A stretch of DNA of 64,000 nucleotides from Chloroflexota bacterium (GTDB taxonomy: Bacteria; Chloroflexota; UBA11872; VXNJ01): assembly GCA_026707405.1 (NCBI GenBank), contig JAPOWW010000021.1, positions 188,841 through 252,840 on the forward strand, read 5' to 3'. Under the pieces are notes generated by a model. It had not been told where the DNA came from. It searched no databases and saw only the letters and a program-made list of their open reading frames with translations. Below are positions 30,581 through 36,770 of the stretch, in pieces (positions within the stretch are counted from its first letter, which is position 1; each line of letters opens with the position of its first letter). The translations under genes were made by a program, and so were the position numbers.

Positions 30581-32968
30581 TCAGTGACCGGTATCCGGCT
30601 CCGCCCCCGGCAACTCCCCGTGCGGCATGCGGTAGCCGACGCGCGGTTGAGCGAAGATGTAGTTGGGAGCGCGCGCGTCCTCGCCCAGCTTGCGACGCAG
30701 TCTCCTCAAATGAGTTCGGAGGGTTCGAGTGTCGCGCGACTTCCCCGGACCCCAAACGCGATCCAGAAGCCGGTCGTGAGGCACGACCCGCCCTGCGTGA
30801 GCCGACAGCTCGACGAGCAGGTCATATTCGGTCGGCGTAAGTTGCACGGGCTTCCCGGCGACGGTCACAAGGCGCTCGGCGTAGTTGATGGTCAAATCGC
30901 CCAGGACGTAGGGCTTCGACGGTTCGGTCCTATGAGGCGTGTCCCGCCGTCGCAAGGCCGCTCTGATCCTTGCCACAAGCTCGGTTGGCGAGAACGGTTT
31001 GACGATATAGTCCGCGGCTCCCGCCTCGAAGGCCCTGGCGATAACGTGGTCCCGGCCATAGGCGGAAATGAATATCACGGGCACGTCGATAAGGTCGAAA
31101 ATGGCCTCCATCAGCTCGATTCCATCCGAGCTTGGCAGCATCAGGTCGAGGAGCACTAGGTGCGGCCTGTTTTGTTCGACAAATAGCAGCGCTTCCGCCG
31201 GTTCGGCGGTCACTATCGGGTGATATCCCGCATCGGAGAGTGTGTTCCGGACATATCTGAGCGTTTGCGGGTCATCGTCTACGACGAGGACTGGCTGGCC
31301 GTCGCTTGCCGCCTGCGGCGGGCGCATGGACCGGCGAGGCGACGTGGCCGGAGCCTCTTCGATCGCAGGGACCGTGAAGGTGAATCGAGCGCCCAGACCC
31401 ATCCCTTCACTCTCGGCCCAGATGCGTCCTCCGTGGGCCTCCACTATTCCCTTGCAAATCGCGAGGCCCAAGCCCGTGTCGCCGCCGTGGTCCTCGGTTT
31501 CGGCCCGATAAAACTTCCGAAACAGGTGCGGCAAGCGGTCGGCCGGTATACCCCTGCCCTCGTCGGCAACTGAGATGGCGACGTGGACGCCATCTCTAAC
31601 CGCGGCCACCCTTATTAACGACGAATCCGGCGAATTCCTGGAGGCGTTGGACAGGAGATTGCCGATGACCTGGACGATGCGCCGCCTATCGGCCATCACG
31701 AGGGGCAGATCCGGCGCAAGGTCGATTTCGAGAATGCTGCGGCCCCCTCCGCTCAGGAAGGTGTTCCGCGCCCGATCCACCAATACCGCCACGTCGACCG
31801 CTTCGGGACTGACCGGCAGCGTGCCCGTCTCGAGGCGCGCGACGTCGAGCAGGTCCCTGATCAGGTCGCGCATGTTGTCGGCCTGATCGACGATTATCCG
31901 CAGAAACTGGCGTATCTCGGCCGGATCCAGGTTAGACGGCGCGTCCAGCAGGCCGGTCGCCGAGCCTCTGATCGACGTCAGCGGCGTCCGCAGCTCGTGA
32001 CTTACCATGGCTAGGAACTCGGCGCGCAGCCGCTCCATTTCCTCGAACGGCGTCATGTCCTGAAGCGTGACCACGACGGACTCGATTTCGCCCTCCTCCG
32101 AGCGGATGGGAGTGGAGTTGATGAGGGTCGTCACGCTCCTGCCGTCCGGGACTTTCATCACGATCTCCTCGGCGCGCAACGTCTCGTCAATGCTGAGCAA
32201 CTGCGCGAGGGAGAACTCCTGGAGAGATATCTCCCGCCCGTCCTCGCGCCGGAAGGTCAGCACTTCCAGCAGCTGCTCGGGCGACTGGTCGGGCTCCCGC
32301 AGGCCGTCCACGATCCTCCTCGCCTCCTGGTTTAACGAGACGGGCGCTCCCGTCCTCGCGTCGAAAACCACGACACCCACCGGCGAGGTGTCGATCAGCG
32401 TTTCCAGGTCGGCCCTGGCCCGCTTTTCGTCCCGGTGCCTGCGTACGTTCACAACGACCAGCGCAACCTGGGACGCGAACATCTCGAGGATCTCCTCGTC
32501 TTCGCGGCTAAATTCCTGGCCTGGTTCCCTCTTGGCCAGGTGGATGTTTCCGACATCCACGCCCCGATGGCGGATGGGGGCGGTCAGGAAAGAACTCGCC
32601 GGTACGGGAATTTGCCAATCGGGCATGCCGATCGACCTGGTGAGATCGGCTAAATCCGGCACTCGCAACGGTCCTGAAATCTTGCTGAGATATTCCAGGA
32701 ACTTCGGCCCCTCGGGCATCTCCCACACCTGCTGGGACATTTCTCGGGTCATGCCGGAGACCACGAAGGCTTCGAGCACACCGGACTCGTCCATGGTGTT
32801 GATCACGGCGTAATCGGCACTGGTCAGCAACCGGGCGCTGTCCAGCACCCCCTGCAACACCGCGTCGAGGTCGAGGCTCTCATTGATGCGGCGCGAGGCT
32901 TCACACAGCTTGGACAGACGGTCCTGGAGTTCCTCTATCTTTCGATCGCGTGCATCTGGTCGTGTCAA
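30581..32968 (-). CDS. One-piece two-component protein: GAF-PAS-histidine kinase-receiver-winged helix
   Basis: A 795-residue soluble protein. Coiled coil 8-30, GAF about 30-178, PAS about 187-305, HisKA with H324 in MVSHELRTPL, HATPase about 420-535 (N441, DEGRGIP, GDTGLGL), receiver about 558-672 with D564-D566, phosphoacceptor D608 and K657, then an OmpR/PhoB winged helix about 688-783 ending GVGYRM. So one chain can sense, autophosphorylate, transfer to its own receiver and bind DNA. Lack of membrane helices means the signal is cytoplasmic. ATG 32968 diverges from the leader region with PhoB-like boxes at 33094-33140, a likely target. The Cache protein lies downstream. All phospho-relay residues are intact. 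Confidence 0.92.
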   Translation of the reverse strand: MTRPDARDRKIEELQDRLSKLCEASRRINESLDLDAVLQGVLDSARLLTSADYAVINTMDESGVLEAFVVSGMTREMSQQVWEMPEGPKFLEYLSKISGPLRVPDLADLTRSIGMPDWQIPVPASSFLTAPIRHRGVDVGNIHLAKREPGQEFSREDEEILEMFASQVALVVVNVRRHRDEKRARADLETLIDTSPVGVVVFDARTGAPVSLNQEARRIVDGLREPDQSPEQLLEVLTFRREDGREISLQEFSLAQLLSIDETLRAEEIVMKVPDGRSVTTLINSTPIRSEEGEIESVVVTLQDMTPFEEMERLRAEFLAMVSHELRTPLTSIRGSATGLLDAPSNLDPAEIRQFLRIIVDQADNMRDLIRDLLDVARLETGTLPVSPEAVDVAVLVDRARNTFLSGGGRSILEIDLAPDLPLVMADRRRIVQVIGNLLSNASRNSPDSSLIRVAAVRDGVHVAISVADEGRGIPADRLPHLFRKFYRAETEDHGGDTGLGLAICKGIVEAHGGRIWAESEGMGLGARFTFTVPAIEEAPATSPRRSMRPPQAASDGQPVLVVDDDPQTLRYVRNTLSDAGYHPIVTAEPAEALLFVEQNRPHLVLLDLMLPSSDGIELMEAIFDLIDVPVIFISAYGRDHVIARAFEAGAADYIVKPFSPTELVARIRAALRRRDTPHRTEPSKPYVLGDLTINYAERLVTVAGKPVQLTPTEYDLLVELSAHAGRVVPHDRLLDRVWGPGKSRDTRTLRTHLRRLRRKLGEDARAPNYIFAQPRVGYRMPHGELPGAEPDTGH

Positions 32969-33093: not shown

Positions 33094-33158
33094 GTCACCC
33101 TAACGTCATTAAAAAAGGGGTAAATGTCACCCTGGCGTCACGTTTAGAGCAGTAAAAT
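33094..33158 (+). promoter_or_regulatory. Tandem PhoB-like boxes and -10 element, copy A
   Basis: GTCA half-sites start at 33094, 33105, 33126 and 33137: two pairs with the 11-base spacing of a Pho box, offset by 32 bases. The -10 TAAAAT at 33153-33158 follows as in PhoB-class activated promoters. The same layout recurs at 35516-35580. The adjacent kinase-regulator gene encodes an OmpR/PhoB-type DNA-binding domain, so it is the likely binder. Confidence 0.65.
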
Positions 33159-33161
33159 ATC

Positions 33162-33725
33162 GCGCTAGGGAGGTTCCAGGTTTCGACTCGCGACCGGGTC
33201 GGATGCCTGATCGAGAGATCATCACGCCGGTCGCCGTCCGAGAACTTCCAGAGCAGTGTGCGTTTAGGGCGTGGTGTGCGCCATACGGCGATCAAGCCAC
33301 CGTAGAAGGTCGGTGAGCGTGCCTCACTTGCTGGAGGATCGAGGAGAGCCGATGCGACCAAACTCTCATCCCTTCACCGCAACGCATGAGCTTGCAGGGC
33401 CATCGCGAGCGGATGCTACAAGCGCCGTTTCGAGCACTCCGCTGTATATGACCAGCGGGATTCGCCGGATGCCCGAAGAGCCACCTCTCAGGGCCGATTC
33501 GACTCTCCGGTCCTGTCTGGCGGGGAGCGGGGTGACTTGCCCCCTGGAGCCTCTACATCACTTCCAGGCCGTCACCCCGCTCAGCAGAGCGGGTATCCCC
33601 CATTGAGTGTTGACCGCATTGCAATGCACGGGGATACCCGCTCGCCTGGGCGAGACGTTGTTTTCGGTGATGTCGTGCGCCGAGATAAAGGGATGGCGTC
33701 TCGCCCACCTCGAAATCGATTGACG
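33162..33725 (+). ncRNA. Structured leader RNA, copy A
   Basis: Starting at the predicted transcription start, 33162-33208 is identical to 35584-35630. Near the 3' end come three stems: 33525-33536 with 33571-33582 (12 perfect pairs, inner stem 33543-33548/33563-33568), 33587-33600 with 33630-33643 (14 perfect pairs), and 33648-33657 with 33697-33706 (10 perfect pairs). The last stem ends 28 bases before GTG 33735, so the RNA is probably the 5' leader of the secreted-protein gene and could control its expression. A small ORF overlaps it. Confidence 0.6.
33352..33606 (+). CDS. Possible small leader protein, copy A
   Basis: An 84-codon frame starting MRPNSHPFTATHEL, with GAGGAGAG 5 bases before the ATG. 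The parallel frame in copy B (35776-36036) aligns for 60 codons without gaps and shares TSGIRRMP, PPLRADSTL and SCLAG; about ten differences are synonymous and about seventeen are not. The 3' part overlaps the first RNA stem. Coding is therefore possible but the RNA structure is a competing explanation. Confidence 0.35.
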   Translation: MRPNSHPFTATHELAGPSRADATSAVSSTPLYMTSGIRRMPEEPPLRADSTLRSCLAGSGVTCPLEPLHHFQAVTPLSRAGIPH

Positions 33726-33734
33726 GAGAGTTAA

Positions 33735-35345
33735 GTGGAGATTACCAACCGGCGGATACTGAGAATAGTCATCGTGGCCACCGGCCTGGCGGTGCTGCTC
33801 ATGATGCTCCCGAAGGCCGCGACCGCGGATCACCTTGGCCCCAATACACGTAGTTCCTACGAAGAGTTCCGCCGTGATTGCACGCGATTCTTCAATGGTG
33901 AGATCCCGCCGGATGGCAGTTACGGACCGCCGTCGGAGCCTCCGCCGTCCAGCAACATTTACATCCGTTACTACGATCCCGTAAAGAAGTGGCACTATGA
34001 ATGCCAGATGTATCACCCCGACTGGGAAGGCTGGGGTCCCCCCAACACGTTTCATTCCAACTCGGCCCCAGACGCCCCGCCCGATGATGGCGGCGGCGGT
34101 GGAGGTGGCGGTGGCGACGGCGCTAGCGGCAGCGGCGGCGGAGGTGGCGGCGGAGGCGGTGGCGGTGACGTCGGGCTCCGCCAGGTCAAGCCGCCCGATC
34201 TACAGGTCGACCTGACTGTCGAGGCAGAGCCGGTCGCGGTGGGCGGAACGGTCACCTACAACGTAAAGATCACCAACAACACCGACGGGACGATGACCGG
34301 CCTCCGGTGGCGGGACAAGACGTCCGGTGGTGGGTGGACGAATCTCGACGACCTCGAAGCTAGTAAATCCGTCACGGTGAGCGGCAGCTTCGGTCCTGTG
34401 CAGACGATGCACCTGCCGGGCATCATCCTGACCGTGGCGGCGGACAGCGACCAGACGGAGGAACGCCCGGCCAGCCGCTACGTGCAGCTCGTCCCGGCGG
34501 CTGTGCAGGGTACGCAAGGTACGCGGAGTACGCGGGCGGCGGCACCGCAGAGGACGCCGGTGGTGACAACCGCCGAACCGTCGGGACCGTTCGCGACGCC
34601 GTCGGTTCTCTCGCTGCGGGTCGAGCGGGTGACGTACACGGCCCCGGACATCCACCTCGGGCATAACATCGCCGATTACATGGTGACGCTGCCCGACGGC
34701 GAAGAGGTGGCCTGCAACTTCCTTGGTCACTACGACGCTACCGGCGGTCTGACGCGTTGGGGACATGCGATCTCCGACGTGATCGAGGAAATGCCGGGGA
34801 CGCTGACGCAGTACTACCAGAAGGGCGCGGCGGACTGCCATCCGGTGTACGCGAAGACGTGGGTTACGGAGCCGCGACTGGTGTGGGACTACATAGGCGG
34901 CGGGAAGGGCGGCGCGCCGGACCTGGGCACAGAGCCGGGCCTTGTGAGCGAGCAGCCGGGGGTCCTGCTGTGGTGGGGACACCGGATATCCGACTACGCG
35001 ATCGACGGGACGGAGGTGGGCTTCAGGGGCTACTTTGACGCGCTGGGCGGTACGCAGTCGTTCGGCTATCCGAAGACCGACGCGCGCATCGACAACCACC
35101 CGCAGGCGGTGCTGAGACTCCCGAACACGGACACGGCGGTGATCCGGCAGTACTTCCAGGCGGCGGTGCTGGAGTATCACCCGGCTGACGAGCTGCAGCC
35201 CGTGAAGACGGCGCTGCTGGGCGACCTGGTGCGGAACATGCGCTACCCGCGTGAGTCGTATCTGGCATTCGGCGCGTTCGAGACGGCGCCGAAGCGCAGT
35301 GTTGGCGAAACGTACACTCCCGAGCGGGCGGTGTTCCCGCCGTAG
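33735..35345 (+). CDS. Secreted protein with Gly-rich linker, CARDB/DUF11-like domain and LGFP-like repeats
   Basis: A 536-residue exported protein. Residues 1-32 form a signal peptide ending AATA. A Cys-containing head (C50, C92) is followed by a Gly-rich linker (about 117-146), then a beta-sandwich DLQVDLTVEAEPVAVGGTVT-type domain (about 152-245) of the CARDB/DUF11 kind. The C-terminal half has repeats with YYQKGAADCHP, FGYPKTD and YFQAAVLEYHP, as in LGFP-type surface proteins of Chloroflexota. GTG 33735 has GGAGAG 4 bases upstream. It is read from the PhoB-box promoter through the structured leader, so it is the best candidate target of the neighbouring one-piece kinase. Likely extracellular or wall-associated; function unknown. 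Confidence 0.82.
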   Translation: MEITNRRILRIVIVATGLAVLLMMLPKAATADHLGPNTRSSYEEFRRDCTRFFNGEIPPDGSYGPPSEPPPSSNIYIRYYDPVKKWHYECQMYHPDWEGWGPPNTFHSNSAPDAPPDDGGGGGGGGGDGASGSGGGGGGGGGGGDVGLRQVKPPDLQVDLTVEAEPVAVGGTVTYNVKITNNTDGTMTGLRWRDKTSGGGWTNLDDLEASKSVTVSGSFGPVQTMHLPGIILTVAADSDQTEERPASRYVQLVPAAVQGTQGTRSTRAAAPQRTPVVTTAEPSGPFATPSVLSLRVERVTYTAPDIHLGHNIADYMVTLPDGEEVACNFLGHYDATGGLTRWGHAISDVIEEMPGTLTQYYQKGAADCHPVYAKTWVTEPRLVWDYIGGGKGGAPDLGTEPGLVSEQPGVLLWWGHRISDYAIDGTEVGFRGYFDALGGTQSFGYPKTDARIDNHPQAVLRLPNTDTAVIRQYFQAAVLEYHPADELQPVKTALLGDLVRNMRYPRESYLAFGAFETAPKRSVGETYTPERAVFPP

Positions 35346-35515
35346 CCGGCGGCGGCTCAAGAGATTTGAGGAACTTGCCGGAAGCGGTCGAACGCCTTGC
35401 GATTCCTCCGGCGGCCGCACCCCGGCTGCCGGTCGTCAGGCTCCGGACCGATGCAGGGACACAAAGCGGCACACGATAGTCCTATTCAAAGTTGACTATG
35501 GTTTTTTGCCTAAAA

Positions 35516-35580
35516 GTCACCTTAACGTTATCGAATATAAGGGAAGAGTCACCATAGCGTCACTTCTAAGGCAGTACAAT
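35516..35580 (+). promoter_or_regulatory. Tandem PhoB-like boxes and -10 element, copy B
   Basis: Half-sites at 35516 (GTCA), 35527 (GTTA), 35548 and 35559 (GTCA) repeat the 11/21/11 spacing of copy A, and TACAAT at 35575-35580 is the same 27 bases after the third half-site. The sequence between half-sites has diverged, so the half-sites and -10 stand out as conserved. Confidence 0.65.
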
Positions 35581-35583
35581 ACG

Positions 35584-36010
35584 GCGCTAGGGAGGTTCCA
35601 GGTTTCGACTCGCGACCGGGTCGGATGCCTCATGGAGAGATCTTCACGCCGGTCGCTTTCCGAGAACTTCCGTAGTCATATGCGTTGAGGGTGTGGGGGT
35701 GCGCCATGCCGGGTTCCGGCCATTTCGGAAAGCCGGCGATGCGAGCTTCACATATCGGAGGATCGAGGAGAGCCGATGCGACCAGACTCTCATCCCTTGA
35801 CTGCAATGCGGGAACTCACGGGAGCATCGCGGGCGGATGCCGGAAAAGCCATTCCGACCATCCCTCTGTATGGGACCAGCGGGATCCGCCGGATGCCGGC
35901 AAGGCCACCTCTCAGGGCCGATTCGACTCTCGGGTCCTGTTTGGCGGGGGGTGGGGTGGCGCTTCCCTGGAGGCGCGTGCATCAACCTCTTCAGGCGCTG
36001 CCCCGCCCCT
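35584..36010 (+). ncRNA. Structured leader RNA, copy B
   Basis: The first 47 bases equal copy A. The terminal stem pairs 35948-35962 with 35995-36009: 15 continuous pairs allowing three G:U. Relative to copy A it has two compensatory A:U to G:C changes and three one-sided wobble changes, with no broken pair. CTTCTTC follows, then AAGGGA and TTG 36047. The second and third stems of copy A are missing. Confidence 0.6.
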
Positions 36011-36036
36011 TCTTCAACTGGATTCCGAGGAAGTAA
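35776..36036 (+). CDS. Possible small leader protein, copy B
   Basis: An 86-codon frame starting MRPDSHPLTAMREL with the same GAGGAGAG ribosome site as copy A. It shares the TSGIRRMP and PPLRADSTL stretches with copy A but a different C-terminus (WRRVHQPLQALPRPFF). It ends 10 bases before the next gene, so translational coupling is possible. Confidence 0.35.
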   Translation: MRPDSHPLTAMRELTGASRADAGKAIPTIPLYGTSGIRRMPARPPLRADSTLGSCLAGGGVALPWRRVHQPLQALPRPFFNWIPRK

Positions 36037-36046
36037 GGGATCTGAG

Positions 36047-36217
36047 TTGGACGATATCGCCGCCGGGGTCCTGCTGTACGAAATGCGGGACACATTCGGA
36101 CTTCTGCGTTCCAAGACGCACATCTCGCGCCATGAAACCCGGATCCGATATCAGAGTCTCGGTCGCGTAGAACAGCGCTTCGATCATGTCGAGGCGCGGC
36201 TGCGTCGGGAGGAGTAG
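36047..36217 (+). CDS. Small hypothetical protein, 56 residues
   Basis: TTG 36047 has AAGGGA 6 bases upstream and opens MDDIAAGVLLYEMRDTFGLL, followed by a basic/acidic helical tail ending EARLRREE. It looks like a short helical protein. It is the first gene downstream of leader copy B and 58 bases before the zinc-ribbon gene. No family recognised. Confidence 0.45.
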   Translation: MDDIAAGVLLYEMRDTFGLLRSKTHISRHETRIRYQSLGRVEQRFDHVEARLRREE

Positions 36218-36275
36218 ACCGATTTTCGAGAGCTTTAGAGACAAGCTGTTCGGCTCGCTCAAAAAAGGCCGCAAG

Positions 36276-36485
36276 ATGACCTGTCCCATATGCGGTGGGT
36301 CCAAGTGGAAGGCGATGGATGGCGAGATCAGCCCGCCGTTTAAGTCATGGGGTCCCATGGAGCGTCCGAAGGGCGTCTCACGACGAGCCAAGCCAGTTAT
36401 GCCTCTGGTACCGATGGTGTGCCGGAATTGCGCTTACACGGCGATGTTCTTGGCAGCGGAATATGAGGGAGTCGCACCTAGGTGA
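36276..36485 (+). CDS. Small zinc-ribbon protein
   Basis: A 69-residue protein with a CPICGG knuckle near the N-terminus and CRNC in a VPMVCRNCAYTAMFLA segment near residues 47-62, spaced as a four-Cys zinc ribbon of the kind found in many small bacterial proteins of unknown role. ATG 36276 is the natural start just before the first knuckle; an upstream GTG/ATG reading to 36186 adds basic residues. It probably shares the transcript of leader copy B. Confidence 0.6.
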   Translation: MTCPICGGSKWKAMDGEISPPFKSWGPMERPKGVSRRAKPVMPLVPMVCRNCAYTAMFLAAEYEGVAPR

Positions 36486-36548
36486 GCGCACTTTCAACCA
36501 CTGTTTACCCACATTCTGTTTTGGCCACCTGTCAGGGCACGACCGTGA

Positions 36549-36770
36549 CGGCCGGCCCTGTTTGGCGGGGAGCGGAGTGACTTGCCCTCTGGAGCCTCTA
36601 CATCACTTCCAGGCTGTCACCTCGCTCATCAGAGCGGGTATCCCCAATTGGGTGTTGACCGCACAGCAATGCACGGGGATACCCGCTCACCGGGGCGAGA
36701 CGTTGTTCTCGGCGATGTCATGCGCCGGAAGAAAGGGGCAGAGTCTCGCCCACCTTTGAATCGATTGGCC
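36549..36770 (+). ncRNA. Structured RNA repeat, partial copy C
   Basis: This block aligns over about 220 bases with 33506-33725 and keeps all three stems: 36570-36581 with 36616-36627 (one G:U, one mismatch), 36632-36645 with 36675-36688 (14 perfect pairs) and 36693-36701 with 36743-36751 (9 pairs). The PhoB boxes and the 5' half are absent and no gene follows on this strand, so it may be a relic or a trans-acting RNA. Confidence 0.5.

Follow-up and report, generated by a model that had tools for sequence, protein, structure and literature searches.

The 64,000-nt stretch analysed here (the window) lies on contig JAPOWW010000021.1 of a Chloroflexota bacterium and is part of a 3.13-Mb genome in 21 contigs. 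It contains a repeated element in three copies (A, B and C), flanked on one side by a divergently transcribed gene for a hybrid sensor-kinase and response regulator and interspersed with the gene of a secreted protein and a small zinc-ribbon open reading frame (ORF). The element is a modular leader rather than one fixed three-copy object, and a hairpin of ~60 nt (hairpin 1) is common to all copies. On the sequence evidence set out below, hairpin 1 is a selected RNA structure, with covariation beyond that of column-shuffled and slid controls. The locus is laid out as follows.

30581–32968, minus strand: gene of a hybrid regulator presumed to control the promoter (795 aa; GAF-PAS-HisKA-HATPase-receiver-OmpR/PhoB-type winged helix)
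33094–33140, plus strand: operator A, two direct-repeat pairs GTCA-N7-GTCA with an 11-bp period, 32 bp apart
33162–33250, plus strand: 5′ domain of A, with stems GGAGGUUC/GAACUUCC and GCGACCGG/CCGGUCGC; putative transcript start
33331–33357, plus strand: Shine-Dalgarno (SD)-like stretch and ATG inside the leader; frame open to 33606
33480–33524, plus strand: P1/P2 of A, CC-A-CC-UCU-CAGGGCC...GGUCCUG-UCU-GG-C-GG
33525–33582, plus strand: hairpin 1 of A, with arms 33525–33536 and 33571–33582, an inner stem and the apical loop CCUCUACAUCAC, not followed by a U tail
33587–33643, plus strand: hairpin 2 of A, 14 bp
33648–33706, plus strand: hairpin 3 of A, 10 bp
33735–35345, plus strand: secreted-protein gene after A (536 aa, Gly-rich linker, DUF11/CARDB-like region)
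35516–35562, plus strand: operator B, same double direct-repeat layout, one half-site being GTTA
35584–35903, plus strand: 5′ domain and middle region of B
35904–36015, plus strand: P1/P2 and hairpin 1 of B (stem 35948–36009), then a UUCUUC tail; terminator-like
36186–36485, plus strand: small zinc-ribbon ORF after B (CxxC...CxxC), with no significant Pfam match
36524–36751, plus strand: copy C, with P1/P2 and hairpins 1, 2 and 3, between convergent genes

The sequence-only reading of this DNA had proposed three copies with a common GC-rich stem, and these three are present as the sole copies in the genome, all of them inside the window. Copies A and B align in blocks of 218 and 194 nt (81% identity) and begin with the same 47 bases, from 33162 and 35584 respectively, as that reading had stated. 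Copies A and C align over 223 nt (87% identity); the homology of C begins at 36524, about 25 nt before the coordinate first given for it, and matches A from 33480 onward, leaving C with neither a promoter nor a 5′ domain. We propose that B and C arose by duplication of the A unit. Folding of the whole copy regions is more favourable than that of shuffled sequences (z = −3.6, −2.3 and −4.3). The claim that two copies lead into genes is clear for A, followed by the secreted-protein gene; after B, no gene is convincing before the zinc-ribbon ORF (36186/36276–36485).

Four more hairpins are found in a genome of the same genus (G001, Chloroflexi bacterium isolate COS1_bin_21): an ortholog of A on contig C89, with the same neighbours as A, a B-like copy on contig C162, and two more diverged copies. 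A covariance model (R1) built from A, B, C, the A ortholog and the B-like copy recovered one of the latter on contig C282, and the other, on contig C52, was spotted by inspecting the promoters of regulator genes. A second model (R2) recovers both the C282 and C52 copies, with scores that are not independent evidence because both copies are among its five training sequences.

In the 12-pair stem of hairpin 1, A and B differ at five pairs, two through compensatory and three through wobble changes, exactly as claimed; from A to B these are A-U to G-C (twice), C-G to U-G, U-A to U-G and G-C to G-U. None of these changes breaks the stem, as was also claimed for A and B; C, which the sequence-only reading did not include in that comparison, has one broken pair (an A·C mismatch) and one G-U pair. 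Taken alone, the A/B comparison is weak, marginal evidence, because seven randomly placed transitions leave no pair broken in 5–7% of simulated trials (P ≈ 0.05–0.07). Between A and the B-like copy, 12 substitutions break no pair (P ≈ 0.001, same type of simulation). Across four distinct stems, 5 of the 12 pairs show two-sided change, 97.9% of cells are paired versus 88.1% after shuffling, and the covariation score of 0.625 (0.363 when shuffled) is reached by none of 500 shuffles. With the C282 and C52 stems added, one of 500 shuffles reaches the covariation score of the six-stem set, and 96.7% of cells are paired versus 45–58% in slid controls. In the four-stem set, the six wobble cells are G-U on the plus strand and one cell is A·C (G-U on the other strand); although the cells are partly non-independent, this pattern favours plus-strand RNA over DNA pairing or antisense RNA. 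The inner stem varies compatibly (CUGGAG/UUCCAG, CUGGUU/AGCCAG, CUGGU/ACCAG) and the apical loop under it is conserved, except in B and the B-like copy: the sequence GCCUCKACAUCACUU is common to A, its ortholog, C, C282 (with one change) and C52, though their flanks have diverged.

Covariation is shown for hairpin 1 only, and not for the other stems. The two further stems reported for A and C (14 and 9–10 pairs; hairpins 2 and 3) do exist and show no covariation, 23 of their 24 pairs never varying; between A and C their arms are under-substituted (1 of 48 bases versus 26 of 151 elsewhere, P = 0.006). P1/P2 is nearly invariant across five copies, with 1 of 45 positions changed between A and its ortholog. 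The stems of the 5′ domain yield no covariation evidence because their pairs are nearly invariant. Hairpin 2, present in A and C, is cleanly absent from the A ortholog (L013 near 1343), where its site lies between short CCCGCTC repeats. A second GC-rich hairpin (GGGGCGGGG...CCCCRCCCC) occurs at L088 2236–2296 and L049 1336–1410; at C52 it stands just 5′ of the secreted-protein gene, a position comparable to that of hairpin 3 in A.

Substitutions between A and its ortholog are unevenly distributed. At fourfold-degenerate sites of the two flanking genes, 106 of 575 positions differ (18%), compared with 4 of 103 in P1/P2 plus hairpin 1 (4%, P = 6e-5), 8 of 88 in the 5′ domain (9%, P = 0.03) and 26 of 80 in the middle region. 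Coding does not explain the leader: the internal frame that follows the SD-like stretch is open in A, the ortholog and B, is frameshifted in the B-like copy, and has pN/pS values of 1.04 (A/ortholog), 0.66 (A/B) and 1.12 (ortholog/B), whereas the adjacent secreted-protein gene has dN 0.08 and dS 0.25 relative to its ortholog. Two outcomes named in advance as speaking against the proposal, a stem that does not covary in related genomes and a block that evolves with a strict codon pattern, were looked for; the sister-genome copies covary in hairpin 1, and the frame lacks coding constraint. The copies in the second genome, the plus-strand wobble pairs and the constraint between species all support the earlier proposal of a structured RNA whose changes preserve pairing.

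A double operator, TCA-N8-TYA occurring twice at a distance of 31–33 bp, is present at A, its ortholog, B, C282 and C52, and is absent from the other 28 of 33 inspected promoters (0 of 500 shuffles); the pattern was chosen after viewing the five, so its informative part is the absence elsewhere. The 11-bp-period direct repeats lie just upstream of the putative start, the arrangement of an OmpR/PhoB-type promoter, and form a predicted binding site. The divergent regulator has Pfam matches above cut-off for each of its domains, including Trans_reg_C. The hairpins of A, the A ortholog, C282 and C52 are each divergent from a gene of this hybrid regulator family; B and C sit downstream of A and not opposite a regulator, and the contig of the B-like copy is too short on that side. 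The divergent regions of ~28 other regulator paralogs hold no convincing hairpin copy and no double operator. Elsewhere in the window's own genome (L073, contig C13, ~150.2–152.0 kb), two regulator genes of the same family stand back to back with neither hairpin nor double operator between them. We read the regulator, operator, hairpin leader and secreted protein as one unit that underwent duplication and is now decaying at some sites.

The element matches no catalogued RNA family, in keeping with the sequence-only reading, which could put no class name to it: no Rfam 15 family matches the 64-kb window or two sister-genome contigs at the gathering threshold, and permissive scans return only microRNA or other unrelated families far below their cut-offs. 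An exact-pattern scan of 84,980 genomes turned up only the two copies of the sister genome. No further credible match was obtained with R1 over 41 genomes of the class and 301 of the phylum, or with R2 over 39 relatives and 400 genomes of the phylum; the larger of these searches apply stricter filters and can let weak copies escape (one missed B and the B-like copy), and some genomes of relatives are incomplete. One match in genome G083 (36 bits) lies in apparent coding sequence with many pairs broken and is judged to be due to chance. In the sets searched, the element is limited to one uncultured Chloroflexota genus, represented by two genomes. To our knowledge, Chloroflexota have so far yielded few described structured RNAs. 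Chloroflexi-1 RNA (Rfam RF01698; PMC2864571), described from Chloroflexus aggregans, is likewise a structured RNA candidate of this phylum, but the window has no match to RF01698 or to any other Rfam model.

We favour, with a rough probability of 0.45, a regulated leader RNA in which hairpin 1 would act as a terminator or attenuator. The leaders of A and B would be transcribed on the plus strand, from a predicted start, under a promoter of the OmpR/PhoB-controlled type, its likeliest controller being the hybrid kinase-regulator of the adjacent divergent gene. The GC-rich hairpin, with its inner CUGG/CCAG stem and, in most copies, its conserved apical loop, would be the terminating or attenuating structure. 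RNA polymerase would stop there where a U-rich tail is present, and such tails directly follow the stem in B (UUCUUC), the B-like copy (UUCUUU), C282 (UUUUC) and C52 (UUUUC), in two lineages. A and its ortholog have no such tail; there, polymerase would read through and the secreted-protein gene would be expressed, the hairpin presumably having been weakened ahead of an intact gene; a signal that makes termination conditional may also be involved. The C52 hairpin lies tens of bases beyond its operator, as would be expected for an attenuator or a very short terminated RNA.

In known attenuators and other terminator-containing 5′ leaders, a long leader likewise separates a regulated promoter from a gene, and the GC-rich hairpin with a U-rich tail is found in four copies. 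Unlike in those systems, neither a conserved antiterminator nor a leader peptide nor any known ligand-binding fold was found in the element, and the copy before the intact gene has no U tail. Several observations weigh against termination at hairpin 1. The sequence after the stem is not U-rich in A, the ortholog and C; the tails that exist are short (4–5 U in 8); and a terminator scan with a loop limit of 8 nt did not flag these hairpins. An antiterminator formed by GCCACCUC with the 5′ arm was rejected as a general feature, because B and the B-like copy alone pair strongly there; no pairing of this kind was found to be conserved across copies. The regulator is connected to the operators by its position, from which we infer the link. 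Some features retained at the B-like and C282 loci may be relics, as both loci look partly degenerate. The estimate of 0.45 reflects the missing tail of A and the lack of a conserved antiterminator. A protein-dependent version of the attenuator is still tenable.

The main rival, which we consider unlikely, is that the loci encode stand-alone, trans-acting small RNAs ending at hairpin 1 (~75 nt at C52, ~400 nt at B and C282), with the loop as a site for an RNA or protein partner and A as a derivative in which such an RNA was joined to the gene that follows. Two-component control of small RNAs is a known arrangement, and the dedicated promoter with OmpR/PhoB-like direct repeats beside a kinase-regulator gene resembles theirs. 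The terminator-like hairpin at the 3′ end, the loop sequence kept in A, the ortholog, C, C282 and C52 despite diverged flanks, and the weak downstream frames at B, the B-like copy and C282 would all fit. However, A and its ortholog lack a terminator before an intact gene, with which A-type copies appear continuous, unlike known small RNAs of this kind, and the loop is not conserved in B and the B-like copy.

It appears improbable that the leader instead governs how the secreted-protein mRNA is translated or how stable it is, for instance by masking the ribosome-binding site or shielding the 5′ end. Strong, conserved 5′ stems would suit such a leader, and in the minimum-energy fold of A bases 33501–33509 can form nine pairs with the SD region at 33724–33732. 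That pairing is not conserved in the ortholog, whose SD region differs, and the SD-hiding variant was rejected for this reason; the loop also differs in B, the B-like copy and C. Equally speculative is the idea that the element is a regulatory RNA of a new class and is inherited as one unit together with the one-piece sensor-kinase/response-regulator, which would start transcription from the double operator, while a factor or ligand binding the apical loop GCCUCUACAUCACUU of hairpin 1 would decide between stopping and continuing. The element is new as a sequence family, but its most likely role is of a known kind, and it resembles a leader of the terminator/attenuator type more than a novel class of RNA.

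Ordinary terminator hairpins, spread by recent duplication and devoid of a regulatory role, are a poor explanation. Intrinsic terminators, including hairpin clusters (PMC8355165), resemble the element in their serial GC-rich stems and in the U-rich tails of B, the B-like copy, C282 and C52; the copies are confined to one genus, several loci are degenerate, and C sits between convergent genes, a normal place for a terminator or a hairpin cluster (PMC8355165). Yet P1/P2 and hairpin 1 are far more conserved between species than neutral sites, and the element, with its conserved inner stem and apical loop, is found at the start of a transcript and not at its end (except for C); in A and B the hairpin separates the promoter from the gene, and a plain terminator at that site would be harmful. 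A DNA-level element, either a hairpin-forming insertion or a mobile repeat, is disfavoured as very improbable: modular copies and the clean absence of hairpin 2 from the ortholog would suit it, but the copies are not dispersed, with only these present in the genome; promoter and orientation are preserved at A, at B and at the corresponding sister-genome loci, and the wobble pairs favour RNA. A mobile or viral origin was rejected, with only three copies in the genome and no match to viral contigs by pattern.

The system joins a one-piece sensor/regulator cleanly to a distinctive operator and a covarying hairpin, which makes the regulator's targets and the role of the hairpin directly testable. 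Its apparent spread within one genus makes its general importance modest, unless metagenomes yield more relatives.

Turning to the downstream genes, the N-terminal domain of the secreted protein matched only the A protein and its ortholog, in the two genomes of the genus, in a single-sequence search. Its C-terminal half (34600–35340) belongs to a repeated domain that has no significant Pfam name and of which 29 of the 41 class genomes carry many copies. At the C52 locus, relatives of the secreted-protein N terminus (24% similarity to the A protein, which is low) and of the zinc-ribbon protein were recognized by eye and are partly degenerate. Directly 3′ of the terminator-like hairpin of C282 (L049 838–969), a 43-aa predicted membrane protein is encoded, with a weak, below-cut-off match to Flp1-like pilin (E = 0.01). 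The zinc-ribbon family has both intact and apparently decaying copies near the loci (36186–36485 in the window; L088 3164–3673 and 5559–6187).

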